Source: Allofournierella massiliensis
GTDB taxonomy: Bacteria > Bacillota > Clostridia > Oscillospirales > Ruminococcaceae
Direction of reading: 5' to 3'
Assembly (NCBI RefSeq): GCF_021531255.1
Contig: NZ_JAFBIO010000009.1
Span: forward strand, 1 to 64,000
Length of the DNA stretch: 64,000 bases
Each line of letters begins with the position of its first letter. Within the stretch, counting starts at the first letter, position 1. The translations under genes were made by a program, and so were the position numbers. Below the pieces are notes generated by a model. That model did no database searches. It was not told the origin of the DNA and saw only the letters and a program-made list of their open reading frames with translations. Below are positions 14,929 to 64,000 of the stretch, one piece after another.

Positions 14929-16635
<1,707 letters not shown>

Positions 16636-16770: not shown

Positions 16771-17152
16771 CTGTATTCAAATGCACGGTCACAAGCACCT
16801 GATACCTATCGCCCCACATCTGTCGGGCGGTAGCTTTTCCGATTTCAAACGCATGCTCCGGTGTAACTTCGCCTTCACGGAAACTCTGTATCCCGTGATA
16901 ACCGACAACCTTGCCACGAAGTCCGAACCGCCGCTGCACGGCAATCATTTCGGCATAGGCGTTTTGCTTGGAGCAGTTGATACCGCCTACATACATCTTG
17001 CGGTCGGTCTTATTATCGTTTTCAGCGTAAGAAAGTGCCGCATATAAATCGTCATCCAAATATCTGCGGTCGGCGGTCTTGTCGGGATTGTCGGCATAGT
17101 CAAGCGTTGCTTTTAGGTTTTTGTATATCGGCCAAAAGCCTGTAACAGCCAC
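16748..17152 (-). pseudogene. Truncated relaxase/mobilization nuclease
   Basis: 134 residues from a GTG start at 17152, matching the N-terminus of MobA/VirD2-type relaxases (PF03432) of Firmicute elements. An N-terminal block (KNLKATLDYADNPDKT) is followed by YVGGINCSKQNAYAEM, GYHGIQSF and VTVHLNTD. Intact family members exceed 400 residues and continue with the HxH metal-binding histidines right after VTVHLNTD. Here the frame ends EIGKHD-stop, so the catalytic core is lost. It follows mobC by a few bases. Confidence 0.75.
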
Positions 17153-17158
17153 GTCGCA

Positions 17159-17533
17159 TTACACTCCATTCATCGCTTCCGCCGCAAGCGGCGAAACCTC
17201 ACCATTCCGTGGATGCTCCTTCTCCCCACAAAGCAGGCTTTGCGGGGACCCCGTTAAGCACCCCATTCCCGGCAGCAGAAAAGTTGCTGTAATTTCTTTC
17301 AGTACATCACCGATTTCCTTGTCCAACTCCGGTGAACTCGCTTTGTCTGCAAGCTCGCTCAGCTTTTCAAGGCAAAGAAAAAGAGCGTCGGGCGGAATAC
17401 CTCTCGGCTCATACCCTAACGTTCTTTGCTTTACATATTCAGTTGTACTCAGCCCGCACTTTCGGGCTTTTGACTGTATTTTATCTTTTTCTTTTGCCGT
17501 GACACGCACGGCAATTCGCATATCTTTCCCCAC
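17159..17533 (-). CDS. mobC: MobC-like mobilization accessory protein
   Basis: About 124 residues. A ribbon-helix-helix type N-terminus (MRIAVRVTAKEKDKIQSKA) is followed by GLSTTEYVKQRTLGYEP and a helical C-terminal half. MobC proteins bind oriT and help the relaxase open the DNA. I prefer the GTG at 17533, preceded by AAAGGAG; an ATG four codons later is possible. A longer in-frame extension covers repeat-rich DNA and is rejected. The last part (GCLTGSPQSLLCGEKEHPR) looks like translated non-coding sequence, so the C-terminus may be altered. Confidence 0.7.
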   Translation of the reverse strand: MGKDMRIAVRVTAKEKDKIQSKARKCGLSTTEYVKQRTLGYEPRGIPPDALFLCLEKLSELADKASSPELDKEIGDVLKEITATFLLPGMGCLTGSPQSLLCGEKEHPRNGEVSPLAAEAMNGV

Positions 17534-17582
17534 ACATATCTCTCCTTTCCGGGGGTTTGGGGGCGGTAAGCCCTCAAAGAGT

Positions 17583-17634
17583 AAATCCACCTTTTGGGGT
17601 GGATTTTGATTGGGACTTTGGCACACAAAGTCCC
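17583..17634. repeat. Two 9-bp inverted repeats, candidate oriT zone
   Basis: AAATCCACC (17583-17591) pairs with GGTGGATTT (17598-17606), and GGGACTTTG (17612-17620) pairs with CAAAGTCCC (17626-17634). They lie just upstream of mobC, where oriT sits in related mobilizable elements. The rest of 17635-17845 shows no gene. oriT assignment is inference from position and structure. Confidence 0.45.
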
Positions 17635-17845
17635 TGCTTGTTATACCGTAGGACACGCCCCGCAGGGCATAAAGAAAAGCAGTTCTCAAGTACCGTGATT
17701 TCAACGAATTTCTTCGCTACACGATACCGAAAACCGCTCCCTTGCCCTTTGGGGCATATCTCGTCATTGAGCCAAAATGGCTCTACTTTTATGTCAAAAT
17801 ATCAGTGTTGAGCCAAATATCGGCGTTTTGGCGCAGCAAATTTGC

Positions 17846-17920
17846 CTAATAAAATCTGCTGCGAAATTTGTAAATGAATATGATTCTTGTCCGTTGCCTT
17901 GGCGTGATTCTGAATACCAT
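17846..17920 (-). CDS. 24-residue reading frame with a strong ribosome site (remnant)
   Basis: AAAGGAGGTTTAGTCT precedes an ATG, followed by MVFRI and then a short basic stretch and stop. Elements of this kind often have an HTH/replication-initiator gene starting MVFR; this may be its surviving start fused to unrelated sequence. I would not assign a function. Confidence 0.2.
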   Translation of the reverse strand: MVFRITPRQRTRIIFIYKFRSRFY

Positions 17921-17949
17921 AGACTAAACCTCCTTTCCGTTTTCGGGCA

Positions 17950-17982
17950 GCAAAAAAGCCGCCGAGTGCAACCTCGACGGCT
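17950..17982 (-). terminator. Orphan minus-strand terminator
   Basis: Minus-strand AGCCGTCGAG / CTCGGCGGCT hairpin (one mismatch) followed by TTTTTTG. No minus-strand gene lies upstream of it (17983-18212 looks empty), so it is probably left over from a deleted gene. Confidence 0.5.
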
Positions 17983-18212
17983 CATTTCCTGCCTTCTGTA
18001 TATATAATAACGGAAAACAGAGATTTTTTACGAAATATAGCAACAACCAAAACTTCAAAAACGCAACAGGTGGTAAGCCTTGAAAATCAGCGATGTTTAC
18101 GGTATAACAGAATATATAATACTTGTGCGAACAGAACGTTTCGATTCTATACAGCGTCAAGTACAGTTTTTGGTACAGTGCTTATGATAGAATAGAAGCA
18201 AAGGAGCAAAAA

Positions 18213-19346
18213 ATGATTTCTGCGTTTTTTACTGCCGATTACCGTGACGGGAGAGTGATATTCGGCGGCAAAAGCTATCCCGCCGGAGTGTTTGCCACAC
18301 ACCTACTCAATCAGTTTTATATTAACGATACCGCCGCACGGATTGCAGTATTTCGGGATGATTTAAATTATCATATTCTCACACAGTTGAATAACAGATA
18401 CTTGAACATTACGGAATTTGTAAAAACGGGAGCAAATACACTTGAAGTCTTTAAAGCTTTGCCCAAACTGCGACCGTTTGACGGGCTGAATATTGAAGAA
18501 GTCCAAAATACAGTAACAACGCTTTTCACGGCAGAAACCGGGAAGAAGATATGCGGATACTTTGCCGACAAAGCAAAGCTCAGTTTATTGTCACAGAATG
18601 AAATCGCCGCAGGCACGGCAGACAGGACGAAAAACGTAACGGATTTTTCTGTAATTGAAAGTAACATTACAGAGATAAAATCGATACTGCTATTTTTTGA
18701 TTCTCTTGCAGATGACTTGATACTTGCACACGGGAACCTATTAAAATTCTGCAACTGTATTGACGATGCCGAACGCTTGGATGAAGCACACCTACTGCCG
18801 TTGGCGCTCTCCATATTTGGTGAACACCATTTCACGCAAAGCGGCAGATATATTTCGGTGAAAAAGAATGCAAAAAGCGTAACCGGAACTGTTGCAAAAA
18901 GACTGAATTTCGACAGCTATTACAGCTTTATACTGACAGACTTTTTTGAGGGGCTACACTACGGGCACTATCCCCGCAAGTGTGAGATTTGCGGAAAGTA
19001 CTTTCTTACGCAAAGCGCAAGACGGCAGAAATACTGTTCTTACGGCATTGCACCTGAGCTGTATCGGGGCAAGAAGATTACTTGTCGAAAATATGCCGCC
19101 GTGCTGAACAGAAAAGGAAAAGCAGAAAACGATCCTATCGTATCGCTGTATAACCGCCGATGTGGCGCCATTCGTACAGAGGTAGGCAGATGTACAATAT
19201 CCAAAGCTTTTGGTGAAGCGGCAAAACATCTTGCAAAGGAACATAAGCTGAGAGCGTTGGCAGATGATCAATACGCAAAAACACAATACAAAAAAGATAT
19301 GAGCCGAGAGGCGTTATACGCCGAAGTGGACAGGAATTTGAAGTGA
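18213..19346 (+). CDS. DUF6076 domain-containing protein of mobile elements
   Basis: 377 residues from the ATG at 18213, which has AAAGGAG six bases upstream. It resembles proteins labelled DUF6076 found on Clostridia conjugative and mobilizable elements. The C-terminal third has a likely zinc site, CEICGKYFLTQSARRQKYC, with another Cys in ITCRKYA, and ends in a Lys/Arg-rich stretch. No catalytic motif is visible. It is first in a plus-strand unit with the sigma-like gene 16 bases downstream. Function unknown; a regulatory or DNA-binding role is inferred from the zinc knuckle. Confidence 0.65.
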   Translation: MISAFFTADYRDGRVIFGGKSYPAGVFATHLLNQFYINDTAARIAVFRDDLNYHILTQLNNRYLNITEFVKTGANTLEVFKALPKLRPFDGLNIEEVQNTVTTLFTAETGKKICGYFADKAKLSLLSQNEIAAGTADRTKNVTDFSVIESNITEIKSILLFFDSLADDLILAHGNLLKFCNCIDDAERLDEAHLLPLALSIFGEHHFTQSGRYISVKKNAKSVTGTVAKRLNFDSYYSFILTDFFEGLHYGHYPRKCEICGKYFLTQSARRQKYCSYGIAPELYRGKKITCRKYAAVLNRKGKAENDPIVSLYNRRCGAIRTEVGRCTISKAFGEAAKHLAKEHKLRALADDQYAKTQYKKDMSREALYAEVDRNLK

Positions 19347-19362
19347 AAGAAGGTGTGTGCCG

Positions 19363-20503
19363 GTGAAAAACGAAAAGTGGACAGAAGATTTATATTTATA
19401 CCGTATGAAGCCGGCACCGCCGAAAAAAAGATGATTTTCAGGAGTATATCTCCCTTTATTTTTCTGAAAAGGACGAAAAATACCTCGGTTGGTTCTTCCA
19501 CTATTATGAGCCAAGGCTGAACACAATTATTATGGAGACGGTGCAAGAAACCGCAATGCAAGGGCATTTTGCCGATTTGAAACAGTCGTATGTTTTCAGC
19601 ATATACAAAGCGCTACAGAAATACGATATTTCTGCAGGCGTTTCCTTTCTCATTTTCAAAGAGCATTATGTAAAAAACGAAATCGACAAATACATCAGTA
19701 CCATGCGGACGGGCTATTCCGTACAAAGCGTGGACGAATACCGAACGCTCAGAAAGGCAATGGCGCTGTATGCAAAGTATGAGTACAAATTTGACGATAA
19801 TACAATCTCCATAATTTCCGCTGAAATTGGTAGGAGCATAAAGGACACCAAAGAGATTATCCGTGCCGGAATTGACAGCACGCACTATACTGATTTTTAC
19901 CGCAAATACGCTGACGAGGACGGAGAGATTACGGCGGAGGACGTGACGGTTGACACTACCTCAAACCCCGAAAGGTTATTTTTCAAACAGTGGCAGGCAG
20001 AAGCGCTGTTTGCTGCTTACGAAGCACTTGATTACCGTGAGCGCAGTATGGTTGCCGATCATCTCGGCTTTTGCTCGGAATGTTACGGTATTTATGAACT
20101 CAGTAAAGACGAAAACGGTAATTCGGTCAAGCTTCTCCGCAAAGGAAAAGCCTACATAGATCTCGCCGCTGAACACACGCTTTCCTCACCTGATACCGCT
20201 TTTCAGATTGTAAACGGCGCTTATGATAAAATGCTGATTGAGCTTGCGATTGATGAGTACATCCATATTGCAGAGCTGCGGTTGACATCCGCTGACAATA
20301 ACTCAGTCACCTATGAATACTGTGCCGATCATAACAATGACTGGGGCAAAATCCACTATACCTTCGGCGAAGACGATTACGATGTCAAACGATATATCTA
20401 TGCCGACAGAAAGGGCGATTTCTTCTTCGCCACCGCAGGAGAATGGATTATGCACAATACCGGTAGAAAGCACATACCTAAATATATGGTTATATCTTTA
20501 TAA
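19363..20503 (+). pseudogene. Sigma-70-like regulator of the element, frameshifted near its start
   Basis: A GTG at 19363 opens a frame (KNEKWTEDLYLYRMKPAPP) that runs into a stop after a run of seven A (about 19425-19431). One frame over, the protein continues in register (DDFQEYISLYFSEKDEKYLG) for about 360 residues. The main body resembles sigma factors of Firmicute conjugative elements: EIDKYISTMRTGYSVQS, then a helix-turn-helix-like region with EIGRSIKDTKEIIRAGI and YRKYADEDGE, then LDYRERSMVADHLGFC. Removing one A would restore a single gene. The C-terminal 100 residues look like an added domain. Confidence 0.6.
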
Positions 20504-20520
20504 AACCGATAAAACGAAAA

Positions 20521-20570
20521 AAGCCCCGATGAGTACAGACAAGAATTTGAAGCTCATCAGGGCTGTTTGT
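20521..20570 (+). terminator. Terminator-like hairpin after the sigma-like gene
   Basis: AGCCCCGATGAG and CTCATCAGGGCT can pair (one mismatch) and are followed by a T-rich stretch. Confidence 0.5.
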
Positions 20571-20638
20571 GCTTTGTTTATGGCATGACAGAAAATTGTA
20601 ATATTTTGCGAAACAATAAAAAATGTAGATAAAATCTC

Positions 20639-20684
20639 TTGCGTTTAGATGTAAATAAAGTATAATAACGCAAGTACTACTTGC
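20639..20684 (+). promoter_or_regulatory. Promoter with palindromic operator for the broken HTH gene
   Basis: TTGCGT, 16-base spacer, TATAAT (20661-20666). Directly after the -10 lies a perfect palindrome GCAAGTA-C-TACTTGC (20670-20684), at the expected transcription start. This looks like an autoregulation site for the HTH protein encoded next. Confidence 0.6.
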
Positions 20685-20697
20685 GAGGTGCTGAAAA

Positions 20698-20787
20698 ATG
20701 TCTTTAACGGTCAGTTACAACAAGCTTTGGAAGTTGCTTGTCGATAAAAAAATGAGTAAGGCTGAAACGCAAAGCCATGATATCTAA
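20698..20787 (+). pseudogene. Truncated Cro/CI-type helix-turn-helix regulator
   Basis: 29 residues starting MSLTVSYNKLWKLLVDKKMS, the exact start of the roughly 70-residue XRE regulators common on Clostridia elements, which normally go on KAEL-RK... into the recognition helix. Here the frame leaves the family after KAE and stops. GCGAGGTG precedes the ATG. The rest of 20788-20959 holds no gene; TTGCAG/TTAAAA-like boxes near 20850 may drive the pilus genes. Confidence 0.55.
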
Positions 20788-20959
20788 ACGATTTTTCGCA
20801 TAACCGACCGGCTGCAAGTTTGCACATGGAAATGTATGAATTTTGCAGTCTTTTTATGAAAAATGTTAAAATATCGGCTTCCGGTTGGCGTGCGGACAAT
20901 CCATTTAATGAGGGATTATCTATCGCTTAAATCGGAGAATCAGAAAGGAGTTGTTGCGT

Positions 20960-23900
20960 ATGCGGTATGCTAATAAAAAGCAGATAACAAGAGCAACTGA
21001 AAGTCTGCGTAAGGTTATTGCAATGATCTGCATTATAGCGATAGCCTTCACGGGAAGCGTATATGCGGCCGCTGAAGAAAGCAGAAAGTTGCTTAACGGC
21101 AGCTTTGAGGAAGGGCAGACTTTTACAGGCAACTATTCACAGCCTAATCAGAGCGCTGTTCCCTCATGGAATACAACGGCTTTTCAGGGAAAAATTGAGT
21201 TATTTAGAAAAAATACAGGCACTTATATAAATGGTGTAACATTAGAACCTAAAGACGGAACTTATGCCGCGGAGCTTAATGCCGACGAAGAAAGCACACT
21301 TTACCAGAATGTAAAAACATCCCCGTCAAGTGTGTATAAATGGGGACTGGATCACGGCGGTCGAAACGGAAAGGATATAATGGCGCTGGTTATAGGACCT
21401 AAGCAGGACGTTAATCCCTCAAAGCCCAACAAGGACGGGCGCGATCAGCTAATGCAGATGGTTGACTGGCTCAATATAGATGTCAGCATGATTACATCGG
21501 GAGCAGAGCCTACACAGTACACCGTTTACAGTAAAAAATTTGCCGCAAGCGGCGCTTTTGAAGACAACGCGGGAAACAACGCGTTCAGCCTAACGCCCAG
21601 TTCAATCTATACCGAAGAATGGCATATATGGATTATGGCGTCCTCAAGGGCGACAAGCGGTACGAATCCGTGGACCTCTTACGGCTCTAACGCCGAGGAC
21701 CAGGCGGGTTCAGGCAACGGCTCGGGCAATACAGGGGTGGATTTAAACAAGTACTATTTCTATACCGTTCCGGCGAGGCAGACCGATACCCTGTTCGCCT
21801 TTGTTTCGGTCGGATATGTCGATTCTATTACGACTGCGGACAAAGCAAAGACCTACGGCAACTTTCTTGATAACATTAACTTTGAGATTTACCACCCTCT
21901 GTCAGGAAGCACCTCTACCCACGGTAGTGCGGTTGTCGGCGGAAGTGACGGAACAAGCGGTGGTACGGGCGCTACGGCGGGCTATCAGGTGACGATTGAC
22001 AATCAGCTTTCAACCTTTGTCGCCGACGGAGAGCCGCTTAAAATCCAGGCCGTTGTGAAGAAGGCAGATGCCGATGATGGCTGTGAATTTGTAGGTGTGT
22101 ATCACACAGAGCATGATGAAAACGGAAATCCCATAACCGAATTTTTGAAATTGGCGGGAAATGTAATTGATGACACGGGCAGCTTGACCGAAGAGGAGAA
22201 AGCGGGTAAATGGCTGAAAACCACGAATGCAGACGGCGATATTATTTATACCTATTATCTTGGTAATATCACTTCGGCAACCGACCTGCATTTTGTATTT
22301 ATCAAGAGCCCTACCGTAACCTACGACCCCAACGGCGGTAAACCTTATGTGGTTGAAAGGATATATAATACAAACGAAGCGCCAAATGTATACAGCTTCA
22401 TGCCTGTGTCGGGTCATAACGAGGCGCAGGCCGAAACAGCGATGATCTTTATAGACCCGTATGTTTCGCATGCGGCAGAGGGACAAAACGACGGTTGGAA
22501 ATTTATGGGTTGGAAGCTTACAGGCGACGTTGTAGAAAATGTTCCGGAAGATAAGAAGGTAAATGCAGAACAATTAGGAACTCTGATACTTCCCGCCGAG
22601 CATACCATAGCCTGCGATTACACCTTTGGTGGAGTAAATGATGACTCGAAGGCGCAGTATTTTAAGATTTATAACGGCACTGTTAGCTTGACCAAGACGA
22701 TAGACCATAATAATGTTAATAACACTGAAGAGGATACAGGTGTAACGTGGAGCGATAACGGTGAAACAAAAGCCTATGCCAATGCCCACAAGGGTATTAT
22801 CATGATTGCTCAATGGCGCTGGAGACAGGCGTTTATTCCACAGCTTGTGGGTCAAGGCGAGTACATAAATTCAACTGATGGCGGAACGGTTGAAATTACA
22901 AGCGTAACCGATACATCGGATGAAAATTATAACGCCGCATATAATGAGAACGGCGGCAAGTCCTACCACGCGGCAATCGATGAAAGGATAACCGTCAATG
23001 CTGTGGCAAACAGCGGCTATACCTTTGAGGGCTGGTATGACGAAAGCGGAAAACTGATTACAACCAACGCCGAATACGCCTATGTTGAAGCGAAGGAAAG
23101 CGTAAACACCTATTATGCACGGTTTTCCAACACCATTACTCAGACCTATATTCGTCAGGTAAAGGACGGCGACGGATGGGCAGATATTGAAGGTACAAAT
23201 TCTTCCGATATCGCAAATCTTGACCGATACACTTATACCGACGCGGTGGGAAGCCCGGTAAGCTCCACCGCCGCCGCAGGAGCAAAATATAAATTTGTGG
23301 GCTGGTATGACTCTGAGGGTAATAAGGTCCCGGAGGGTATGCTTATAAACGGCGGAGTAACAATAAGCTATACAACCGCCGTTGACGCAACCTATTACGC
23401 CAGATTTGTGCCCACGGTTACGCAGAAATTTATTCGTCAGGTACAAAACGGAGACCTGTGGGAAAATACAAACGACGATGACGTGGCAATACTCAGCAGC
23501 TATACACATACCGACGAAGCGGGAGTATCGGTAAGCTCTGCCGCAACAGTGGGAGATAGATATTTTTTTGTGGGCTGGTATGACTCTGAGGGTAATAAAG
23601 TCCCGGACGAAATGCTTACAAACAGCGGAACAAAAATCGGTTACACAACTGTAGGCGACGCAACCTATTACGCGCGTTTCGAAAAAAAGTTCACTCTTAA
23701 TGTCTCTAAAATCGACGGCGACCAATCAACCTCGGAAAACAAGGTGCCCCTCGCCGGTGCAGAATTCACCCTATACCAAAGGGATGACGGCGGCGATAAA
23801 ACCGTCGTCTATGAGGAAGAAAGTATTAAATGCACCGAGATTGCCTCCTGTGTTACGGTTTTAAGCGAGGACGGTAAAACCGCAACCGCGGTTTTCGACG

Positions 23901-24211
23901 GTATGCTGATACCGAATACCGACTACTTCCTGATTGAGAAAAGGGCGCCTGCAGGCTATCGTCTGCTTGATACGCCCTTAAAAATAACCATTTACGGTTC
24001 GGACAACACCGCCCTGATCGATGGAATATCAAATGAAATTACAGAAAAAAAGGTGAATGTTGAACTTGCAAACTATTTGACGCTGCACATGCCCACTTCC
24101 GGAATAGATTTTACCGGCGGTTGGTTTGCGGCAGCGGGACTTATGCTGCTGGCTGCAGCGACAATCGGTTTGTTTGGTCTAAAAATAAGCCGACTTAAGA
24201 AACAAAAATAA
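20960..24211 (+). CDS. LPXTG-type cell-wall-anchored adhesin (pilus tip/shaft protein)
   Basis: About 1,084 residues. A signal peptide ends near VYAAAEE. A secreted N-terminal domain resembling a carbohydrate-binding module follows (LLNGSFEEGQTF). A middle region holds GWYD-type (InlB/Listeria-Bacteroides) beta repeats, including two tandem 94-residue units (23141-23422 and 23423-about 23690), each starting with an IRQV block and ending TYYARF. A SpaA/Cna-B domain follows (PLAGAEFTLYQ ... LIEKRAPAGY) that should form a Lys-Asn isopeptide bond. The sorting signal HMPTSGIDF, a hydrophobic helix and a basic tail end the protein. AAAGGAG precedes the ATG; an in-frame TTG three codons earlier is less likely. 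Likely the adhesive pilin. Confidence 0.88.
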   Translation: MRYANKKQITRATESLRKVIAMICIIAIAFTGSVYAAAEESRKLLNGSFEEGQTFTGNYSQPNQSAVPSWNTTAFQGKIELFRKNTGTYINGVTLEPKDGTYAAELNADEESTLYQNVKTSPSSVYKWGLDHGGRNGKDIMALVIGPKQDVNPSKPNKDGRDQLMQMVDWLNIDVSMITSGAEPTQYTVYSKKFAASGAFEDNAGNNAFSLTPSSIYTEEWHIWIMASSRATSGTNPWTSYGSNAEDQAGSGNGSGNTGVDLNKYYFYTVPARQTDTLFAFVSVGYVDSITTADKAKTYGNFLDNINFEIYHPLSGSTSTHGSAVVGGSDGTSGGTGATAGYQVTIDNQLSTFVADGEPLKIQAVVKKADADDGCEFVGVYHTEHDENGNPITEFLKLAGNVIDDTGSLTEEEKAGKWLKTTNADGDIIYTYYLGNITSATDLHFVFIKSPTVTYDPNGGKPYVVERIYNTNEAPNVYSFMPVSGHNEAQAETAMIFIDPYVSHAAEGQNDGWKFMGWKLTGDVVENVPEDKKVNAEQLGTLILPAEHTIACDYTFGGVNDDSKAQYFKIYNGTVSLTKTIDHNNVNNTEEDTGVTWSDNGETKAYANAHKGIIMIAQWRWRQAFIPQLVGQGEYINSTDGGTVEITSVTDTSDENYNAAYNENGGKSYHAAIDERITVNAVANSGYTFEGWYDESGKLITTNAEYAYVEAKESVNTYYARFSNTITQTYIRQVKDGDGWADIEGTNSSDIANLDRYTYTDAVGSPVSSTAAAGAKYKFVGWYDSEGNKVPEGMLINGGVTISYTTAVDATYYARFVPTVTQKFIRQVQNGDLWENTNDDDVAILSSYTHTDEAGVSVSSAATVGDRYFFVGWYDSEGNKVPDEMLTNSGTKIGYTTVGDATYYARFEKKFTLNVSKIDGDQSTSENKVPLAGAEFTLYQRDDGGDKTVVYEEESIKCTEIASCVTVLSEDGKTATAVFDGMLIPNTDYFLIEKRAPAGYRLLDTPLKITIYGSDNTALIDGISNEITEKKVNVELANYLTLHMPTSGIDFTGGWFAAAGLMLLAAATIGLFGLKISRLKKQK

Positions 24212-24231
24212 ATAACGAAAGAAAAATCACT

Positions 24232-25728
24232 ATGAAAACGAAAGCTGAAAAATTGGTAACTCTTATCCTGACAGCACTGCTTGTGTTGTCCATTCTGCCG
24301 ATGAACGTTTTTGCGGCACAGAGAGATGTCACCGAAAGCTCAACCGCTTCTATCACAATCAATAACGCAGTAGAAAACGATATACTCGCGGCATATAAGG
24401 TGGTCGATATTACTTATGTTGCGGAAACAAACACGTTGACTTATGCGTGGAACAGTGCTTTTGCCGATTATTTTGCCGGCGCTACCTCTTATAATTCCAC
24501 CGCGTATACAGTAGAACAGTTTGCTGCGCTTGAGGACGATTCCGATACTCTGAAAAGCCTGCTTGCAGGGCTTCCGAACTATATTGCAGGCAAATCAATT
24601 ACTCCTGTCGGCACTCCGACTGTTGCCGCAGGCGGCACTGCCACCTTTGCAAATCTTGCAATGGGCGAGTACTTTATCCGTCCCACCTCGACCACCTCGG
24701 TTTACCAGTTGATGCTTCAAAAGGTTGAGCCGACCGTTGTTGACGGCAAATATGTTATCGACGACGTGACCTTTAGCGCGAAGCACAAAGAGGTTTCTGT
24801 CACAAAAACTGCCGATAAAACCAGCGTAACTAAGAACGAAAAGGCAACTTATACAATTACGGTTGAAATTCCTACCTATGCGACAGGGGCGGTAGACAAG
24901 TCTTTCTATGTTTCCGACCTTCTCCCCGACGGACTTACTATTGATACCGATTCCATAAAAGTTAAAATTGATGGAGCAGATGTTGACACTGCGGCTTATA
25001 CGCTTGATACAACCGCAACCGCCGAATATACCTTTAAATTAAGCGTTGATACAGCTAAGTATGCCGCAAGCTGGTCTGCAAGCGGCGGAAAACAGCTTGT
25101 GATTACATACACCGCCACCCTTAACGTTGACGATACAACACAAGTTAACACCAAAGAAACCAACACGGTCACCTTTGACTATTCCAACTACCCTTATGTT
25201 GAAAATTCCCATGCACAGAAAACGGATACTGTTGATGTAACAACCTTTGCCATTAAGATTGACAAGTATGTCAAAAATGACGAAGGCGCTAAGCTTGCCA
25301 ACGCAAAATTTGATTTATACAGAACCGTTACAACGGCTGAGGTTGGCGCAGGATCAGCAGTAACCATCCCGCATACAACCATAGAAGGTATTCTTTTGGA
25401 AAGCGGTTTAACGACAGATGCTAACGGCGCCGCCACCTTTGCAAAGTATGAGGCAAACGGAACAAATTACGACTACTATCTTGTCGAGACGCAGGCCCCC
25501 TCGGATTACAACATTCTCGACAATGCCGTAAAGGTGAACTTTACCGATACAGAGGTTGAAGCTACCAACGGTGTTTATACCGTTGAAGTTCCTAACAGCA
25601 GCGGTATTAAGCTACCGATAACCGGTGGTACAGGTACTGTAATCTTTACCATAATCGGTATTGCGCTCATGGTTGGCGCAGTTGTGTTGTTTGTTGTTTC
25701 TCGCAAAAAAGAAAAAGAAAGCAAGTAA
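24232..25728 (+). CDS. Major pilin: isopeptide-forming fimbrial protein with LPITG anchor
   Basis: A 498-residue secreted protein: signal peptide (ends PMNVFAAQ), N-terminal pilin domain, and a D2-type domain (SVTKTADKTSVTKNEKATYT ... SDLLPDGLTID). A C-terminal Cna-B domain follows (KLANAKFDLYRTV ... YYLVETQAPSDYNIL) with the Lys and Glu that support an isopeptide bond. It ends with LPITGG, a hydrophobic helix and RKKEKESK. Size and domain order match FimA/SpaA-type shaft pilins, polymerised by class C sortases. It starts 20 bases after the adhesin gene and is followed by two sortases. Confidence 0.9.
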   Translation: MKTKAEKLVTLILTALLVLSILPMNVFAAQRDVTESSTASITINNAVENDILAAYKVVDITYVAETNTLTYAWNSAFADYFAGATSYNSTAYTVEQFAALEDDSDTLKSLLAGLPNYIAGKSITPVGTPTVAAGGTATFANLAMGEYFIRPTSTTSVYQLMLQKVEPTVVDGKYVIDDVTFSAKHKEVSVTKTADKTSVTKNEKATYTITVEIPTYATGAVDKSFYVSDLLPDGLTIDTDSIKVKIDGADVDTAAYTLDTTATAEYTFKLSVDTAKYAASWSASGGKQLVITYTATLNVDDTTQVNTKETNTVTFDYSNYPYVENSHAQKTDTVDVTTFAIKIDKYVKNDEGAKLANAKFDLYRTVTTAEVGAGSAVTIPHTTIEGILLESGLTTDANGAATFAKYEANGTNYDYYLVETQAPSDYNILDNAVKVNFTDTEVEATNGVYTVEVPNSSGIKLPITGGTGTVIFTIIGIALMVGAVVLFVVSRKKEKESK

Positions 25729-25803
25729 TTCCAAGTTTCTTTAAAAGGGGCGGCGAGCAGTTTCCGCCCCCTTTTTTAACAATATAAAAAGGAGGAAAAC
25801 AGT

Positions 25804-26661
25804 GTGAAAAAAGTATTGCCGACCATATTGATTGTACTTGTATTTCTCGCCGGAATCGCTGTTTTCCTCTATCCGACCGTTTCCAACTATCTTTATGCGA
25901 AAAACAGCAGTAAAGCTATTACCCAGCATTCGGAAAACCTCTCCAAATTAAGTCCTGAGGTTATTGCGGAGGAGAAAGAGGCAGTAAGGCGCTATAACGA
26001 AAGTCTTTTTGAAAACGCCGTGGTGCTGACAGATCCGTTTGACCCGGACGCTTACCCCCTAACCGACGGCGAGTATAGTGAGCTTTTGGCTTTTGATGAT
26101 GTAATGGCATATATTGAGATTCCCGCGATTAATGTGTATCTGCCAATTTATCACGGAACAGCGGAAGAAACATTGTTGATCGGTGTAGGGCATTTGGAAA
26201 ACACATCGCTGCCTGCAGGGGGATTAACTACACATGCCGTTTTATCGGCGCACTGCGGTTTGCCGTCTGAACGTCTTTTCACAGATCTGCATTTGCTAAA
26301 ACAAGACAGTATTTTTCGTATTCACGTTCTTGACGAGACGTTAACCTATCAGGTTTACGATATCGAGACAGTCGAACCTGACGACAGTTCCTCTCTTTTT
26401 ATACAGGAGGGCGAGGATCTTGTGACTCTGATCACCTGCACTCCCTATGGTAAGAACACCCATCGTTTGCTGGTACACGGCAGACGAATTGAGGAAAAGG
26501 ATGAAGCTCTGATCGAAGAACCGAAAATCGAAAAGAAAATGACATGGGAGGACTATACAAAGCTTGCGGCCATCGGTATTACGGCGGTGTTTGTTCTGTT
26601 GCTGCTTGGAAGTGCGATTCAAGGCTTGATACGGAGAAAGAAGCATGAGAAAGCTGATTAG
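25804..26661 (+). CDS. Class C (pilin-polymerising) sortase 1
   Basis: A 285-residue sortase with an N-terminal membrane helix, the class C lid (DPFDPDAY near residue 80), IEIPAINVYLPIYHG, the catalytic His in LSAHCGLP, the nucleophile Cys in TLITCTPYG, and the Arg in HRLLVHGRR. A second membrane helix lies at the C-terminus, as in SrtC enzymes. It links pilin threonine to a lysine of the next pilin outside the membrane. The start is GTG at 25804 with GGAGG eight bases upstream. It overlaps the next sortase by 17 bases. Confidence 0.92.
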   Translation: MKKVLPTILIVLVFLAGIAVFLYPTVSNYLYAKNSSKAITQHSENLSKLSPEVIAEEKEAVRRYNESLFENAVVLTDPFDPDAYPLTDGEYSELLAFDDVMAYIEIPAINVYLPIYHGTAEETLLIGVGHLENTSLPAGGLTTHAVLSAHCGLPSERLFTDLHLLKQDSIFRIHVLDETLTYQVYDIETVEPDDSSSLFIQEGEDLVTLITCTPYGKNTHRLLVHGRRIEEKDEALIEEPKIEKKMTWEDYTKLAAIGITAVFVLLLLGSAIQGLIRRKKHEKAD

Positions 26662-27361
26662 AATAATAGCTGTTATCTTGTTGATTGTCGGCATTGGCTT
26701 TTTTGCTTATCCTATTGCCCTGAGGGTTGTCTTTAATATGCAGGCGAATCAAGCGATTGACCAATTGGAACAGCTTAAAACAGACGAATTTCAGACGGAT
26801 GATTCGGTTACAGATGAATGCGACCTTCCGTATGCCCAACTGCGCAAGGCGATGTTCGATTATAATGAGAGGCTGTATGTAAGTGGGCAAAGCGGACTGA
26901 TCGACCAGCTGTCGTATGAAAAACCGGATTTTTTACTCTCCGATTACGGAATTGACAGTGATATACTTGCTTACATTACAATTCCCTCAATCGATGTTAA
27001 ACTTCCGATTTATAACGGCGCAAGCATGGAAAATATGGCTAAGGGAGCGGCATATCTTGCCAACACCTCACTTCCTGTCGGGGGAGACAATACCAATTGT
27101 GTAATTGCCGCCCATACGCGGTATAAGGGAATCCATATGTTTAAAAGAATTACCGAGCTTAAATCGGGGGATGAAATTTATATAACTAATTTTTGGGAAA
27201 CACTTGTGTATAAAGTAGTAGAAGCCAAGATCATCGACCCCAATGACAGTAAGAACATTTATATACAGGCAAACAAATCTCTTGTGACCCTATCGACCTG
27301 TCATCCGTATCCGTACAATTACCAGAGGTATTTGGTATATGCCGAGCTTGTCGAGAATTAG
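26645..27361 (+). CDS. Class C-like sortase 2
   Basis: A 238-residue sortase: N-terminal membrane helix, ITIPSIDVKLPIYNGAS, catalytic His in CVIAAHTRYKG, Cys in TLSTCHPYP, and Arg in YQRYLVYAELVEN at the very end. It lacks the C-terminal membrane helix and the DPF-type lid of sortase 1, so it may add the adhesin or anchor the finished fibre rather than polymerise the shaft. That division of labour is inferred. Translation is coupled to sortase 1 by overlap; a terminator follows at 27512. Confidence 0.88.
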   Translation: MRKLIRIIAVILLIVGIGFFAYPIALRVVFNMQANQAIDQLEQLKTDEFQTDDSVTDECDLPYAQLRKAMFDYNERLYVSGQSGLIDQLSYEKPDFLLSDYGIDSDILAYITIPSIDVKLPIYNGASMENMAKGAAYLANTSLPVGGDNTNCVIAAHTRYKGIHMFKRITELKSGDEIYITNFWETLVYKVVEAKIIDPNDSKNIYIQANKSLVTLSTCHPYPYNYQRYLVYAELVEN

Positions 27362-27511
27362 CCTGTTTCCCGAAATAAACCTTTAAAGAATTTTGCAACA
27401 TATATGAGTACGGAATAATTATTGTTTGGATATATGAGAAAATAGGTGTGGTCGTGCCGGTATTTCAATACTTTTTAATCAAATCCGCTATGAACAAAAA
27501 GATGCCCTCCG

Positions 27512-27539
27512 AAAAACTCCGATTTCATCGGGGTTTTTC
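27512..27539 (+). terminator. Terminator of the pilus operon
   Basis: AAAAACTCCGAT / ATCGGGGTTTTT hairpin with TTC loop (one G-T pair), about 150 bases after the last sortase. The sequence before it (27362-27511) contains no gene. Confidence 0.8.
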
Positions 27540-27811
27540 TCGTTTTTGGGGCAAGTTATTTGAAGATAGTTTTAGAGATGCCAAACGACAAAAATCCTAT
27601 TCAGATACCTTTTAAACCGACATAACCGAAAATACGAGTAAAAGCAAAGCACATGGACTCGCAACTGCATTTTATTTATAGATTGTTTCTGCATTGATAT
27701 ACGCAGAATAAGCAATAACAATGGGGACGGCAATCAAACCATCCCAAGTTCATCTATGATGACATAAAGTTCTTCAAGGAGAATAAGGAGAAGCTACCCC
27801 GTGCAGAAGCA
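27540..27811. other. Gene-free right end of the element
   Basis: AT-rich sequence with no credible start or ribosome site. From about 27741 an open frame (NHPKFIYDDIKFFKENKEK) runs without stop into the ABC ATPase fragment; it looks like the tail of an unrelated gene. Somewhere from here to about 27878 the low-GC element gives way to high-GC chromosome. Confidence 0.6.
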
Positions 27812-28564
27812 ATGATACAGCGCAAGAGTGAGATTTCTTCTCGCCTGACACAGTTTCTCCAAAGCAACGAACTCCAATTGGTGCTGCACAACATCAGCCT
27901 GTGGGCCAAGCCCGGCCAGAAGATCGCCTTTGTGGGCGCTACCGGCGCCGGCAAGACCACCATCACCAATCTGATCAACCGGTTCTATGATATTGCCGAT
28001 GGGAAGATCCGGTATGACGGCATCAACATCAACAAGATCAAGAAGGCCGACCTGCGCCGCAGCATGGGCATGGTGCTGCAGGATACCCATCTGTTCGCCG
28101 GCACGGTGATGGAAAATATCCGCTACGGCAACCTGGAAGCCACCGATGAGGAGTGCATAGCCGCGGCCAAGCTGGCCAATGCGGACGGCTTTATCCGCCG
28201 GCTGCCCGATGGGTATGATACCCTGCTCACCGGGGACGGCGCCAACCTGAGCCAGGGCCAGCGGCAGCTGCTGGCCATTGCCCGGGCGGCAGTGGCCGAC
28301 CCGCCGGTGCTGATCCTGGACGAAGCCACCAGCAGCATCGATACCCGCACCGAAAAGCTGGTGCAGGACGGTATGGACGTCCTGATGACCGGCCGTGCCA
28401 CCTTTGTGATCGCCCACCGGCTCTCCACCGTGCGCAGCGCCGACTGCATCATGGTCATGGACCAGGGGCGGATCACTGAGCGGGGCACCCACGAGGAGCT
28501 CATTGCCAAGAAGGGCAAGTATTATCAGCTGTATACCGGCAATTTTGCCGAGGAACCGGCGTAA
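27812..28564 (+). pseudogene. ABC exporter ATP-binding domain without its membrane domain
   Basis: From about 27878 on, this is the nucleotide-binding domain of an MsbA/LmrA-type ABC exporter. Visible parts are LVLHNISLWAKPGQK, Walker A GATGAGKTT, the Q-loop MVLQDTHLFAGT, the signature LSQGQRQ, Walker B VLILDEATSSID and the H-loop IAHRLSTVRSA. A normal protein has about 330 preceding residues with six membrane helices; they are missing. The 22 residues in front are foreign but in frame. The true start is unknown and the product is unlikely to export anything. Confidence 0.8.
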
Positions 28565-43838: not shown

Positions 43839-44707
43839 CAGGGAAAAGTACCATACGCCTATCGGACCATTTCACCTTTGGCAGGCTGCTGCGCTACGCG
43901 TTCCCTTCCATTGTCATGCTGGTGTTCACCTCCATTTACGGGGTGGTGGACGGGTTCTTTGTTTCCAACTTTGTGGGCAAGATCCCCTTTGCGGCGGTGA
44001 ATTTCATCATGCCCTTTTTGATGCTGCTGGGCTGCGTGGGCTTTTTGTTCGGCACCGGCGGCGGGGCCCTGATCGCCGTGACCCTGGGTGCCGGCCACAG
44101 GCAGAAGGCAAATCAACTGTTTTCCATGCTGGTCTATGTATCCATCGCCTGCGGTGTGGTGCTGGCGGTGCTGGGCTGGGGGCTGGAAGGGGCCGCCGCC
44201 ACCGCCCTGAGCCAGTGCGTGGGAGGGATCCTGCCCCTCGTCTATTTTGCCCGCCCCAATGCCAGCCTGCTGCGGCTGGGCAGGGCCGGGCTGGATCTGC
44301 GGGCCCTGGGCAAGGTATGCTCCAACGGCTCCTCCGAGCTGATGAGCAACGTTTCCATGTCCCTGGTGAGCATGCTGTACAATATCCAGCTGCTGCGCTA
44401 TGCCGGGGAGGATGGGGTGGCCGCCTACGGGGTGCTGATGTACCTGAACATGATCTTTCTGGCGACTTTTCTGGGTTATTCGGTGGGCACTGCCCCGGTG
44501 GTGAGCTTCCACTATGGGGCCGGCCATTCCGGCGAATTGCGGGGCCTGCTGATCCGGAGCCTCTGGGCGGTGGCCCTCTTTGCGGTGGTCATGTTCGCCG
44601 CCGCCGAGCTGCTGGCCCGGCCCCTTTCCATGATTTTTGCCTCCTACGACCCCCAGCTGCTGGCCATTACCCTGCGGGGGTTCGCCATCTACTCCTTCTC
44701 CTTTTGA
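43835..44707 (+). pseudogene. MATE family efflux pump, 5' part, with an internal deletion
   Basis: 291 residues of a multidrug/toxin extrusion transporter: RLLRYAFPSIVMLVFTSIYG, VDGFFVSNFVGKIPFAAVN, MPFLMLLGCVGFLFGTGGG, LRALGKVCSNGSSELMSNVS, YNIQLLRYAGEDGVAAYGVL. Between VVLAVLG and WGLEGAAATALSQC roughly 80 residues that normally form two to three helices are missing, in frame. The gene stops matching at AIYSFSF (44706) where foreign DNA begins; its remaining end is at 46189-46434. Not functional as drawn. Confidence 0.8.
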
Positions 44708-46188
44708 ACACAAAAAAAGGAACCGCTGTGCTCAATGCACCTGCAGTCACGGGTCACCCCGCTCCGCATTACGGTTCCAGAAAAGGAACCGCTGTGCTCA
44801 ATGCACCAAGCTTTCGGGATTTCTCCACAGGCTTAAACAGTTCCACCATCAGTATAGCACAATTACTGGAAATGGCAAGAAAGAACTTCCCGGATGTTTT
44901 GCCTGAAAGTGTGCTGCGTGAGTTTGGGTATACGGAAAGGCCGTCTGGAGAAAAAGGCTCTGCTGCTCTATACCAGATTCGGCAGGGCGGCAGCCCGGTA
45001 GAAGCCGAAAACGCCCGGCTGCGGCGGCAGGTTGAACTGCTGAAGGAAGAATTCAAGTTGACCGATGGACACAAGATGAACAAGAACGCAGTCAACGTGC
45101 TGGCCGGCAGGCTGCTGCGGCAGTACAGTTCTGGCTATGACCGGGATCTTCTGGAAAGCCGGCTGTATGAGTTCTTCAACAGCATCGCCAACGACAGCGA
45201 AAGCAGCTGGTTCAGCTTTATGGACAGGGCCACCGAGATCATGACCGATGTTCTGGAGCAGAGCAGCCGTAAAGAGCCCAGCCTGCGAAAGCAAGACCCT
45301 ATGTATGAGGAACTGTATCAGATGCTGTCTGCCCCCATTACCCTGCGGCCTGATGAGTATCGAAGCATTACCGCTGCATTCGGCAAACCTGAAAGAGGCA
45401 AAATCTTGGGCCTGCGAGTAAAAAATGGTGATGAAACCACACCCAGCCTGGATGTGCTTCATTCCACCGAACTGATTGAAAGGTTCCGTGGGTACTTCAG
45501 CCCCGATCAGGCTACAGCGGAAGATATCTTCCTTCGGATGGCAGAGGTCCGGGAAGCCGTGAACGAAACCACGGTGGTGAACGATTACGGGCAGGACATG
45601 GAGATGGCCTCCCGGATGGCCGCCGAGGCGCTGTTTGAGGACTACCTGAATGTGCCTGAAAAGACCACCATGGCAGACAAGAATAGGGCCAAGATTATGC
45701 GGCTCCGGGCTGAGTTCAAGGCCAGCAGGAAAGCGGCGCTGGACAGCCAGAAAGCGGCCTATAACGAGCGCCTTCGCAAGGTCCGTGAGGAACTGAAAGA
45801 GCAGCGGCAGAAAACCGCACAAGCGCAGAAAGAGGGCCGCCAGAACGCTAAGAAAGCCTATGCCAAGGGCGTTGCAAATCAGCGGCTGGCGGATGATATC
45901 TATTTTGCCGCCAAACTGGCCCGGGCGCAGGCAAAGATGCAGCGCAAGTATGAAAACCTGAAATCCAGAAAGGACAAAGTCTTTGCGGATTACAAGGAGC
46001 GCCGCCGGATGACTGAGCTGCGGGGCAAGATCACCAGGCTGAAAGATGATCTTTCCAGCCGGGTGCTGCGGCCCACGGATGGGCACTATGTTCCTTCTTA
46101 CCTTGTCCGGGGGGCCATTGATGTGGCCGCCATGCTGGACACGGTGGGCCGGGAATATGATTCCCAGGGCAATCAAACCAACTTGTTT
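44708..46188 (+). mobile_element. 1.48-kb foreign fragment inside the MATE gene (phage-type polyvalent protein piece)
   Basis: Sequence between AIYSFSF and FAGFSIYSSAFF of the MATE gene. From about 44850 it encodes an internal piece of a large, helix-rich protein: STISIAQLLEMARKNFPDVL, GRLLRQYSSGYDRDLLESRL, coiled-coil KNRAKIMRLRAEFKASRKAA, YKERRRMTELRGKITRLKDD, PTDGHYVPSYLVRGAIDVAA. This pattern is typical of giant phage/ICE proteins with large polyvalent protein domains. Neither its start nor its end is present. No integrase, transposase or clear target duplication is visible. The frame runs on into the MATE 3' part. Confidence 0.65.
44715..44807 (+). repeat. Two 27-bp direct repeats at the left end of the insertion
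   Basis: An identical 27-base unit (begins AAAAGGAACCGCTGTGCTCA and ends ATGCACC) at 44715-44741 and 44781-44807, period 66 bases. GGTTCC at 44774-44779 adds an inverted match to the GGAACC of the repeat. In the open frame they read as a repeated KGTAVLNAP. Confidence 0.85.
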
Positions 46189-60679: not shown

Positions 60680-60738
60680 AAGCAAGGCTCTCCCGGAACA
60701 CCGCCCCGGCAGGCGGGTGTTCCGGGAGAGCCTTGCTG
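60680..60738. terminator. Bidirectional terminator, HAD / eut locus
   Basis: Very strong hairpin: AGCAAGGCTCTCCCGGAACA pairs with the exact reverse complement at its other end, with an AAAAA/TTTTT tract for the minus-strand eut transcript. Confidence 0.9.
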
Positions 60739-60753: not shown

Positions 60754-60933
60754 TCAGGGGGAAAGGGGGGCCGGGTCCTCTTCCAGAAAGCGGCGAAGCT
60801 GGGGGATGCCCTGGCCGGTGCGGGCGCTGACCGTGAAGATGGGACTGGCCCCTGCCAGTTCCAGCCCGTTCAGGCACTGGCAGAGGGTAGTTTTGCCGCA
60901 GGCCACATGGCCCACAAGAAGGATCCTTTTCAT
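60754..60933 (-). pseudogene. eutP: EutP/PduV GTPase with its centre deleted
   Basis: 59 residues. The start [20 protein letters not shown] contains the Walker A loop of EutP, but after LNGLE the text jumps to the far end, LAGASPIFTVSARTGQGIPQ followed by LRRFLEE. Roughly 90 central residues with the switch regions and the NKxD/TKxD guanine motif are gone, in frame. Family length is about 150. Last gene of the decayed eut locus, starting four bases inside the end of the upstream chimera. Confidence 0.75.
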
Positions 60934-61418
60934 GTGCGGGTGATCTCCGTAGGGGCAAAATGCAGCAGGTCTTCCAGTACCCGAAGGACCTCCCGCACGG
61001 CGGCTTCCACGCTGGCCACGTCGCCCCCGATCACCAGCGAGCCGTTGAAGCGGTCCACAAAAACGATCTCCACCCCGGCCGCCTTGGTGGCCACGTCGGC
61101 CACCGCCTCGGTGACTGCGGCCACCTCACCGGTGAGAATCACAAAGAATTTGCCCCCGATGCCGGTGCCCAGGCGCAGGTCCACCAGATCCACATCCGCC
61201 GCCTTCACCGCCGCGTCGGCGCTGTAGACCGAGGCGGTGACCGAGAAGAATTCCGGTATCCCCACCGCCCGCATGGAATCGGGCATGGAGGTCATGTTGA
61301 TGGCACGGATGATCTGGGGGTGCACCCGGGGGACCCGGCCGTCCATGCTGGCGTGGATCAGCGCCCCCATGGCGCCTTCCGGCGGCTGGGCGATGAGCTG
61401 CCCGCCCGGACCGAATCG
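60930..61418 (-). pseudogene. Chimeric microcompartment gene: PduS end + PduT-like BMC domain + EutS end
   Basis: The frame begins with the tail of a PduS/RnfC-type protein ([20 protein letters not shown]). It continues as the second BMC domain of a PduT-like shell protein ([56 protein letters not shown]). At ATKAAG it passes into the C-terminal half of EutS ([32 protein letters not shown]). The junction lies where BMC domains resemble each other. Near 61418 the reading slips by one base in a G run from the upstream frame. The first ATG in frame is at 61370. Confidence 0.7.
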
Positions 61419-62029
61419 CCCGGCGCCACCAGGGGCAGGCAGGGCGCGCCGATATGCATTTTCAGGGGGATCTCCACCGCCCGGGCCCGGCCCTGGGGCC
61501 CCTCTTCCGGCGGCACCAGGATGCCGGAGGTGGTTTTGGTGACAAAGGCCTCTTCGGCTTCCTCTTTGGTGAGGGTGCGGCCCATCATGGGGCCGCCGCT
61601 CACCACACAGTACCGGTGGGTTAAAGGCCCGCCGGCCGGTTCCAGGCAGGCCCGGAAGGAGGTGCCCACCGGCACGCTCAGAACCACCGGATGGGCCACC
61701 TCGCCGGTGACGGTGAGGATCTTCTGGGTGAAGGGGATCCCCTCCATGGCCTGGGAGATGGCATAGATGGTGGCGATGTTATCCACCACCGCCCCGGCGG
61801 CCAGGGGAAGGCCCCCGGGGGGCACCTCATAGGGCACCACCGGGTTTTCCCGCAGGTCCCGCACCAGCAGCTCGCTGAGCACCTGCTTGGCGGCCACCCG
61901 CTCCAGCCCGGAGGCGGCGGCCACCCCCGCCAGGATATCGCCGGATTTTTCCTCGTTGGCCTTGGCCAGCACCTCCTTCACCGACTGGAAGGTGAAGGTG
62001 CGGCCGGCCAGAACAGTGGAAAGCTTCAT
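61358..62029 (-). pseudogene. EutB N-terminus fused to PduS-like middle and C-terminal part
   Basis: Residues 1-67 are the start of the ethanolamine ammonia-lyase large subunit (KEVLAKANEEKSGDILAGVA, ERVAAKQVLSELLVRDLREN, PVVPYE). The text then changes to an SLBB/RnfC-like PduS protein: [71 protein letters not shown]. It then loses frame near 61418. Most of EutB (about 390 residues) and the front of PduS are missing. GGGAGAAG precedes the ATG, 16 bases after the eutA stop. Confidence 0.72.
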
Positions 62030-62047
62030 CTCGTTGCTTCTCCCTGT

Positions 62048-62843
62048 TTATCCGAACAGCAGGGTCTTGCCCACCACCGGGATGGCCAGACCTTCCAGCA
62101 CCGGGCGGCCCAGGTCCACATAATCGCCCTGTTCGGCCCGGACGCCGTCCAGGCAGACCACCGGCCTTGCGCCGTTCAGTTCCTTTTTCATCAGAAGCCC
62201 CAGGGCCTTGGCCATATCCTGTTCCAGCACCACCAGCGCCGGCCTTCCAGGCAGAGGGCCTGTTCCTCGGGGGTAAGGCGCAGCACCGGCAGGTTCTTGA
62301 GGGGGAACAGGGCCGCCTCGCTGTAGATGATGGTGCTGCCCGAGACCGAGGTGGTGCAGCTGCCCGCCCCCACCACCGTGGCCCGGATGGTCTCCTCCGG
62401 CCGCAGGCGGGGCAGGGCGCTGCCCAGCAGCCCCTGCCGCAGGGATTGCCCCAGCAGGATGCCGATATCCCCGTACCGCAGTAGGTCCTGGCCGGTCTGC
62501 TCCATGCAGTCGGCCGCCCCGCCGGAAAAGCAGAGCCGGGCCAGGGGGCGGGCCGGCTTTTCCAGCCGGGAACTGCCGGGGGCATAGAGTTTTTCCAAAA
62601 GGGCTCGGCGGGGGCCAGCCAGAGGGCCTGGGCCACCAGCCGGCGCACCGCCGGGCCGTCGATCTGCACCGGGCTTAAAAGCGGGGTGAGATGCACCCGG
62701 CTTTTGTAGATCACCTCTTTGCGGGTGATGGCCACATGGGGCACCGAGAAATAGCCGGAGGTATTTTCCATGGTGATCCGGCTGAACACCAGCTGGGTGG
62801 TGGATGTGCCGATGTCGATGCTGACACTGAGAATATCAGGCAA
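62048..62843 (-). pseudogene. eutA: EutA (ethanolamine ammonia-lyase reactivase), fragmented
   Basis: Three stretches of EutA in three frames. N-terminal: ILSVSIDIGTSTTQLVFSRI, HVAITRKEVIYKSRVHLTPL, IDGPAVRRLVA, then jump to ALWLAPAEP. Middle (from about 62600): LEKLYAPGSSRLEKPARPLA, CFSGGAADCMEQ, RYGDIGILLGQSLRQG, TIRATVVGAGSCTTSVSGST. C-terminal (62233-62048): LEQDMAKALGLLMKKELNGA, VRAEQGDYVDLGRPV, VPVVGKTLLFG. The first frame change is explained by one C missing from a C run. Large parts of the actin-like ATPase core are absent. Likely start TTG at 62843 behind GGGAGGTG. Confidence 0.75.
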
Positions 62844-62870
62844 AGGAAAGATCACCTCCCGGCAGAAAAC

Positions 62871-62949
62871 AAAAAAGGCCAAGACATCCCCCGAAAAGGA
62901 TGTCTCAGCCTTTTTGCTGTACGGTATGACGCCGCACCCTGTTGTGCGG
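62871..62949 (-). promoter_or_regulatory. Candidate EutV (ANTAR) dual-hairpin antiterminator with terminator
   Basis: On the minus strand, between eutW and eutA. P1 is CCGCAC-AACAGG-GTGCGG (62949-62932), 12 bases of linker, then P2 CAGC-AAAAAG-GCTG (62919-62906). The right arm of P2 is also the left arm of the terminator hairpin AAGGCTGAGACATCC / GGATGTCTTGGCCTT, which ends in TTTTTT (to 62871). P2 and terminator exclude each other. Two six-base loops starting with A, with a terminator overlapping P2, is the architecture described for EutV-controlled eut leaders; the loops here fit only loosely. Confidence 0.55.
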
Positions 62950-62950
62950 A

Positions 62951-63435
62951 CTATTCGTTTTTAAAATCGAAGGAGACCTGGCTGCCCGCCCCGTCATCCG
63001 ATACGGTGACGGTGTGGTACAGCTCGCCCGCGCAGAGGGAGACGGTGATCTGATTCGCCCAGCAGCCGGCGGCAGGCAGAGTCGGGGGCCCGCCGGGCCT
63101 GCAGGTTCAGGATGCTGGCCACCAGCTGCAGGTTGTTCTTGACCCGGTAGTGGATCTCCCGCAGGGCCGCGTCGTCCCGCAGGGGCTGCGGAGAACGGAG
63201 GGAGAGATCCTCCTGCTCGTAGGAGCGGGCCAGGCTCTGGAACTTCTTTTCCTGCAAAAGATCCCGGCTGATATCCCGCTCCCGGATCAGCACCCCGATG
63301 CAGCGGCCCCCTTCGCCCCGGATGGGCACAGCGTTCTGGCGCGCCACCCGGTCCTCCCGGGTGATGGCCTTCAGGTCCCGCACCGGGGCCATCAGGCGGA
63401 TGGCGTGGAAGACGGCGGGCTCCCGCTGGGGGGGA
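62951..63435 (-). pseudogene. eutW: EutW sensor kinase, missing N-terminus and most of the ATPase domain
   Basis: Begins inside the protein (REPAVFHAIRLMAPVRDLKA, VARQNAVPIRGEGGRCIGVL, DISRDLLQEKKFQSLARSYE). The histidine box of the HisKA_2/HWE type follows, LREIHYRVKNNLQLVASILN. After LQARRAPD-S-ACRRLLGE the text slips frame and ends with the last strand of the ATPase domain (ITVSLCAGELYHTVTVSDDG, FDFKNE). The N-box and G-boxes are gone. EutW would autophosphorylate on ethanolamine sensing and pass phosphate to EutV. Confidence 0.72.
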
Positions 63436-64000
63436 ACAGCCGTGGTTCCTGGCATACTGGAGGATGTACCGGTGGGCCTTGTCCTCGGAATAGCCCCGGC
63501 AGGCGGCCAGCATCTGCTTGGCGGGGCCGATCCGGTCGGCCCGCTGGGCCCGGGCCAGGTATTGCTGGGCCTTGCGGATCCGCCTTTCCTCCTGCATTTT
63601 TTGCTGGGTGGCCTCTGCCTGGCGCATCCGCTGGCTCTGGGCCAGGGCCACCTCGATGGCCGGCAGCAGGGAGCGCTGGGCCACCGGCTTGACCAGATAG
63701 CCCGAGACCCCGGCCTCGCTGGCCCGGCGGATGAGGGGCTCGTCGTTGAAGGCGGTGAGCAGCACCACGCAGCCGGCCAGATCCTCCTGCAGGATGGTCT
63801 CGGCGGCGGTCAGCCCGTCGAAAACCGGCATCTTCACATCCATCAGCACTACGTCCGGCCGCTTGGCCCGGCAGAGCTCCACCGCGTCGAACCCGTCCCC
63901 TGCCTGGCCCACCACCTGGAAATCCAGCTCGGTGAGCATATCGGCCAGATCCATCCGGGTAATGGGCTTATCGTCCGCAATGATTACCGTTCTCGTCCTG
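63436..64000 (-). pseudogene. eutV: EutV response regulator with ANTAR domain, end lost; start outside window
   Basis: Partial at the window edge. Receiver domain: VIIADDKPITRMDLADML, phospho-Asp block VVLMDVKMPVFDGL, the Thr-position LLTAFND and the Lys in GYLVKPVAQ. ANTAR region: RADRIGPAKQMLAACRGYSE, DKAHRYILQYARNHGC. At 63436 the text leaves EutV at a run of seven C (minus strand) and enters EutW sequence. The final ANTAR helix and the gap to EutW are missing. EutV binds RNA to prevent termination in eut leaders. Confidence 0.78.

Follow-up and report, generated by a model that had tools for sequence, protein, structure and literature searches.

A collapsed ethanolamine-utilisation operon in Allofournierella massiliensis and its probable decay by deletion

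The window analysed here, bases 1 to 64,000 of a contig 67,177 bases long in the draft genome of Allofournierella massiliensis (2.53 Mb, 92 contigs, 99.9% complete), carries at its far end what its sequence suggests to be a dead EutV/EutW-regulated, microcompartment-type ethanolamine-utilisation (eut) operon at an early stage of removal. Real, recent and deletion-dominated decay is the favoured reading of this locus, with a probability of about 0.6. Lying on the minus strand, the remnant runs from 60,754 to ~64,040, just beyond the window end; it shows ~11 junctions left by deletions and, at two places, a frame slip of one base. It now measures ~3.3 kb vs. an estimated original 14 kb, and an estimated three quarters of the operon sequence, including EutC and other shell genes, has been lost. 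Orthologous gene order and inactivating lesions, which together characterise a decayed operon, were found between intact flanks.

Gene pieces and what they lack

A first-pass annotation of this DNA had recognised eight gene pieces on one strand in the expected order, and all of them were confirmed by Pfam and NCBIfam profiles and by alignment to intact operons (Table 1). On the minus strand the pieces follow each other as EutV, EutW, EutA (three pieces), EutB, PduS/RnfC-like, PduT, EutS and EutP, which according to the alignment is the order of intact eut operons in related genomes. Alignment to relatives with intact operons was the check that the annotation had proposed, and in it the pieces fell in order and the missing parts could be located. 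Intact operons of the family comprise EutV, EutW, EutA, EutB, EutC, EutL, EutE, shell proteins, further genes, PduS, PduT, EutS and EutP; some of the relatives' stretches do not reach both operon ends, and the genes outside the family searches were named by position and are presumably as named.

Table 1. Features of the eut remnant and its immediate surroundings, in positions of the window
Feature	Positions	Strand	Retained part and basis
EutV	63445..64000	-	Receiver and one remaining ANTAR part; Pfam and alignment
EutW	62957..63445 (edges approximate)	-	Sensor/HisKA_2 part (ends at about 63,055), followed by two short ATPase-end stretches
Hairpin	62858..62925	-	Strong, terminator-like, retained between eutW and eutA; z -3.83 vs. 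shuffles
EutA	62048..62840	-	Three pieces; Pfam profile 2-72, 254-350 and 415-474 of 475
EutB	61826..62029	-	First 68 residues, continuing in frame into PduS; Pfam profile 1-57 of 435
PduS/RnfC-like	61338..61825	-	SLBB part, then C-terminal RnfC_N part; NCBIfam rnfC 246-354 of 435
PduT	61102..61337	-	NCBIfam eut_PduT about 76-160 of 182
EutS	60933..61101	-	C-terminal part including stop codon; NCBIfam EutS 47-110 of 111
EutP	60754..60933	-	First 26 residues, in frame to C-terminal part; PduV-EutP Pfam 1-26 of 143
Inverted repeat	60681..60737		Between eutP and HAD-like gene; terminator-like for both strands (by eye)

The Pfam search matched EutA, EutB, SLBB, RnfC_N, BMC, PduV-EutP, HisKA_2, GAF_PdtaS, Response_reg and ANTAR, while the NCBIfam matches all fell under the curated full-length cut-off, as expected for fragments. 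Compared with the closest relative, G398, the pieces showed 58-81% identity over 20-143 residues each (e.g., 81% for EutB, 79% for EutS and 71% for the PduS piece), which at the level of sequence comparison is far beyond chance.

EutV starts beyond the window end; the candidate start codons are a GTG near 64,038 and, at 64,065, a TTG. Near 63,530 the tandem ANTAR region of the gene is short of 34 residues that are present in 6/6 relatives, and the end of the gene is also missing. In EutV of six relatives (L042, L046, L047, L048, L049 and L006), a tandem ANTAR-like region rather than one ANTAR was recognised by eye. EutW is missing its start as well as the middle of the ATPase domain and some of that domain's end, and the intact EutV/EutW regulator required of a functional eut operon is absent. 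The region of the eutW-eutA hairpin matched no Rfam family at the gathering score, the five matches at E up to 1 all being below it. The EutV antitermination leader consists, according to PMC3369931, of two hairpins placed before a terminator, each with a six-base loop whose first base is A and whose fourth is G. A search for such a leader found the terminator and one small hairpin with the loop AACAGG, which has A at 1 but no G at 4; a second hairpin was not identified.

EutA has been cut internally by deletions near 62,620 and 62,242, and its pieces stand in three frames; its one-base slip in a G/C run near 62,607 lies near a junction, and the placement is based on a short aligned stretch. 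The EutB-to-PduS junction spans about 7.9 kb in the relative G155. PduS has an internal deletion near 61,480 and a one-base slip in a G/C run near 61,403, and EutP has lost about 270 bp, including the middle of the GTPase domain. The EutB piece is the sole EutB match in the genome, EutC has no match anywhere in the draft genome, and the genome has no BMC domain outside the truncated pieces of PduT and EutS. A functional eut operon needs the EutB and EutC lyase, and a functional microcompartment operon needs a full set of shell proteins; both are missing here, and neither ethanolamine ammonia-lyase nor a complete shell can be made from the remnant. The "gene fusions" of the first-pass annotation are not to be taken for working fusion proteins.

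Junctions, reading frame and age

The ~11 junctions lie in EutV, between EutV and EutW, in EutW (two), in EutA (two), between EutB and PduS, in PduS, between PduS and PduT, between PduT and EutS, and in EutP. The deletions range from about 100 bp to 8 kb; for six of them, subtraction between anchors in G155 gave about 165-475 bp. Apart from these junctions, the damage found consists of the slips near 62,607 and 61,403, which agrees with the earlier description of the lesions as junctions plus two slips in G/C runs. Zero stops were found in 934 codons in 12 pieces, and the view that the kept pieces are well conserved and free of scattered stops holds.

The reading frame is kept at 8/10 scorable junctions (binomial tail at one third = 0.0034), namely those in EutV, the second in EutW, the first in EutA, EutB-PduS, in PduS, PduS-PduT, PduT-EutS and in EutP, and is broken at the first EutW and the second EutA junction. 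The EutV-EutW junction was excluded as a gene boundary. Counting the first EutA junction the other way gives 7/10 in frame and a binomial tail of 0.0197. The in-frame excess speaks for real deletions, since it is not predicted by random fragment joining; the scoring was post hoc, with the data already known, and the excess is suggestive only.

It is extremely improbable that the stubs were retained on purpose, as a miniaturised and still-translated set of fusion proteins of some use. Such retention would fit the 8/10 in-frame junctions, the stop-free pieces, and the keeping of the EutB and EutP start regions and of the eutW-eutA hairpin. However, EutB covers only 57/435 profile positions, EutA stands in three pieces and three frames, most of the ATPase domain is gone from EutW and the GTPase middle from EutP, the frame is broken by two slips, and the fusions were not seen in a second genome of the 396- and 394-genome samples, in which EutA and EutB were examined.

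In five of the contig's open genes, 50% of 3-base and 72% of 6-base repeat pairs were in frame. Deletions between short repeats would thus often be in frame in a codon-biased genome, and seven of the 10 junctions with a scorable frame were therefore tested for shared bases by comparison with deletions simulated in G104, a coarse test in which one of the seven lies beside a slip. The ambiguity widths were 2, 2, 6, 3, 4, 5 and 3 bp (mean 3.6), vs. means of 4.9 for simulated joins with 0-1 shared bases and 7.0 for those with 6-8 shared bases, giving in this coarse test no sign of shared repeats of at least 6 bases at the seven junctions. Repeat-mediated deletion, which would yield many in-frame junctions, was rejected because no long shared repeats were seen at the seven tested. 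Ku end joining was dropped because no Ku gene was found in the genome. Together, the lack of shared repeats and of Ku supports no mechanism, leaving low-homology illegitimate recombination or slippage as the presumed route.

In simulations of neutral change, the first stop appeared at a median of 29-35 substitutions, and 95% of the runs had a stop by 120-154 substitutions, i.e., 0.043-0.055 per site, which with no stop in 934 codons suggests that the loss is recent. The native codon-position composition of the pieces is a further point for the favoured reading. Nonsense mutations and faster amino-acid change are marks of a decayed operon, of which the former is absent from the 934 codons. As for the latter, 17/282 otherwise-invariant positions are changed here vs. 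7-32 of 170-280 in eight relatives; there is thus no clear relaxation of amino-acid constraint, a point against the favoured reading.

In the proposed course of events, the operon would first have stopped being useful, and roughly 11 serial deletions and two slips would then have reduced it from 14 kb to about 3.3 kb before stop codons arose. The deletions may have arisen where little sequence was shared, via slippage or illegitimate recombination, and the junctions would be present in the living cell.

The empty sister site and the question of an assembly fault

Past the remnant, the contig continues through three open genes up to 67,177, which from their translations we take to be two glycosyltransferases and a DedA-like protein, and a contig-end effect is thereby ruled out as the source of the damage. 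The other flank presumably holds HAD-like and methionine-synthase-like genes, likewise read from translations. In the sister species (G001, an uncultured Oscillospiraceae metagenome bin and the sole other genome of the genus compared), these flanks are also present, at 91% and 86% identity, separated by 204 bp in which there is no eut sequence. A different hairpin stands in the sister at the site of the 60,681-60,737 inverted repeat. Between contig and sister, the largest gap was 17 bp within about 19 kb of aligned blocks, and 3 of the 39 matched sister ORFs (14,633 aa) lay in two frames, one of these via a visible insertion; poor base quality of the contig was not seen outside the remnant.

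Elsewhere in the window, about 1.48 kb at 44,706-46,183, within a gene read as MATE-like multidrug-efflux, is absent in the sister. By eye, no target base was lost here; Pfam gave no match to the merged ORF of 705 residues, and matches elsewhere in the genome were only short, at 67-78%. At 14,820-27,880 no blocks aligned to the sister contig, and two long ORFs there have a third-position G+C of 0.49 and 0.45 vs. 0.81-0.89 in five other genes, which is mobile-island-like.

Gain of the operon at this site by the Allofournierella massiliensis lineage, rather than its loss by the sister, followed by decay, would also fit the empty sister site, and the tested flanking genes were not found in 12 stretches around relatives' operons. 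This course is nevertheless improbable, given that the codon-position composition of the remnant is that of neighbouring intact genes, i.e., native, and that no mobile-element gene was seen in the remnant. Near DNA matches were not found in phages and plasmids. The decay itself is the same whether the sister lost the operon or the lineage gained it.

A local assembly fault, in which an intact operon of the strain or of part of its population was reduced by joining short fragments and losing the gaps, is possible though on the unlikely side. It would explain why the lesions are almost exclusively junctions, why the kept pieces resemble functional protein and why shared repeats are not seen at seven junctions; moreover, no other eut-bearing genome in the family and order samples is so fragmented. 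Missing parts on other contigs would mark such an artefact, but the searches for EutB, the BMC domain and EutC found the missing genes on no other contig of a draft that has contigs down to 1.2 kb. This absence, the empty sister site, the sound contig and the in-frame excess are the four results that favour real DNA. The slips within the pieces, few in the rest of the contig, likewise speak against a fault, as do the kept segments, which are not the G+C-poor ones. Deleted and kept parts are equal in G+C in relatives (0.597 vs. 0.593 in G155, 0.652 vs. 0.658 in G104), and dropout driven by G+C was rejected on these values. Retention of reads at conserved segments only was likewise not supported, EutB and EutM-type shell genes, which are among the most conserved, being nearly or wholly lost.

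The main argument left for an artefact is the deletion-heavy, stop-free lesion pattern, which is atypical of Salmonella pseudogenes. In the Salmonella survey (PMC2916853), 346/378 pseudogenes carried a single lesion, of which 141 were a short deletion and 131 a stop. The remnant is like these pseudogenes in having inactivated genes between conserved flanks with deletions prominent; in contrast to their mostly single lesions per gene, short deletions and stops, it has many mid-sized deletions and no stop. The first-pass annotation had left a very recent burst of deletions and a sequencing or assembly fault open side by side; recency is now backed by the absence of stops and the simulation, and real deletion is favoured, the fault being kept as the less probable reading.

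Comparison with other operons and meaning of the loss

The EutA cut-off was passed in 31/396 genomes of the family, of which 27 have a near-complete single gene. The remaining ones are G013 and G311, just above the cut-off, G396, with an in-frame internal deletion, and Allofournierella massiliensis, with three pieces. EutB was found in 17/394 genomes of the order, full-length in 16 and as a fragment in Allofournierella massiliensis. The eutA gene of G396 (L071) thus likewise has an in-frame internal deletion in a eut gene. In contrast to the remnant, it is a single deletion between two similar motifs, and the genes after eutA in the stretch compared are near full length. At about 6,800-7,820 of that locus (G396:C103), the deletion removes roughly 135 residues and joins two similar actin-type motifs. 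The long Firmicutes eut operon, as in Enterococcus faecalis (PMC5821096), combines the common genes with EutV/EutW antitermination regulators and a microcompartment; measured against that description, the estimated three quarters gone here include EutC and other shell genes. A limited search of the open-access literature returned no report titled as a collapsed eut operon.

Ethanolamine use is patchy among such bacteria. For Enterococcus faecalis, PMC5941071 reports that the bacterium tolerates losing the ethanolamine pathway and may colonise the gut even better after the loss. The simplest account of the locus, and the most likely one, is an optional operon lost recently through serial deletions. 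Optional operons are known to be lost, and only the style of the loss is odd here. Rather doubtful is the wider proposal of a rapid, deletion-first loss of optional microcompartment operons in some gut-type bacteria, in which about a dozen mid-sized, mostly frame-keeping deletions would precede nonsense mutations and leave translatable stubs, rather than slow point decay or one large excision.

If the junctions result from an assembly fault, the locus would be a warning that draft genomes may hold convincing but false operon remnants. If they are real, it would offer a snapshot of a eut operon being dismantled, beside a sister species without the operon, and the in-frame excess would raise the testable question of how or why the deletions keep the reading frame.
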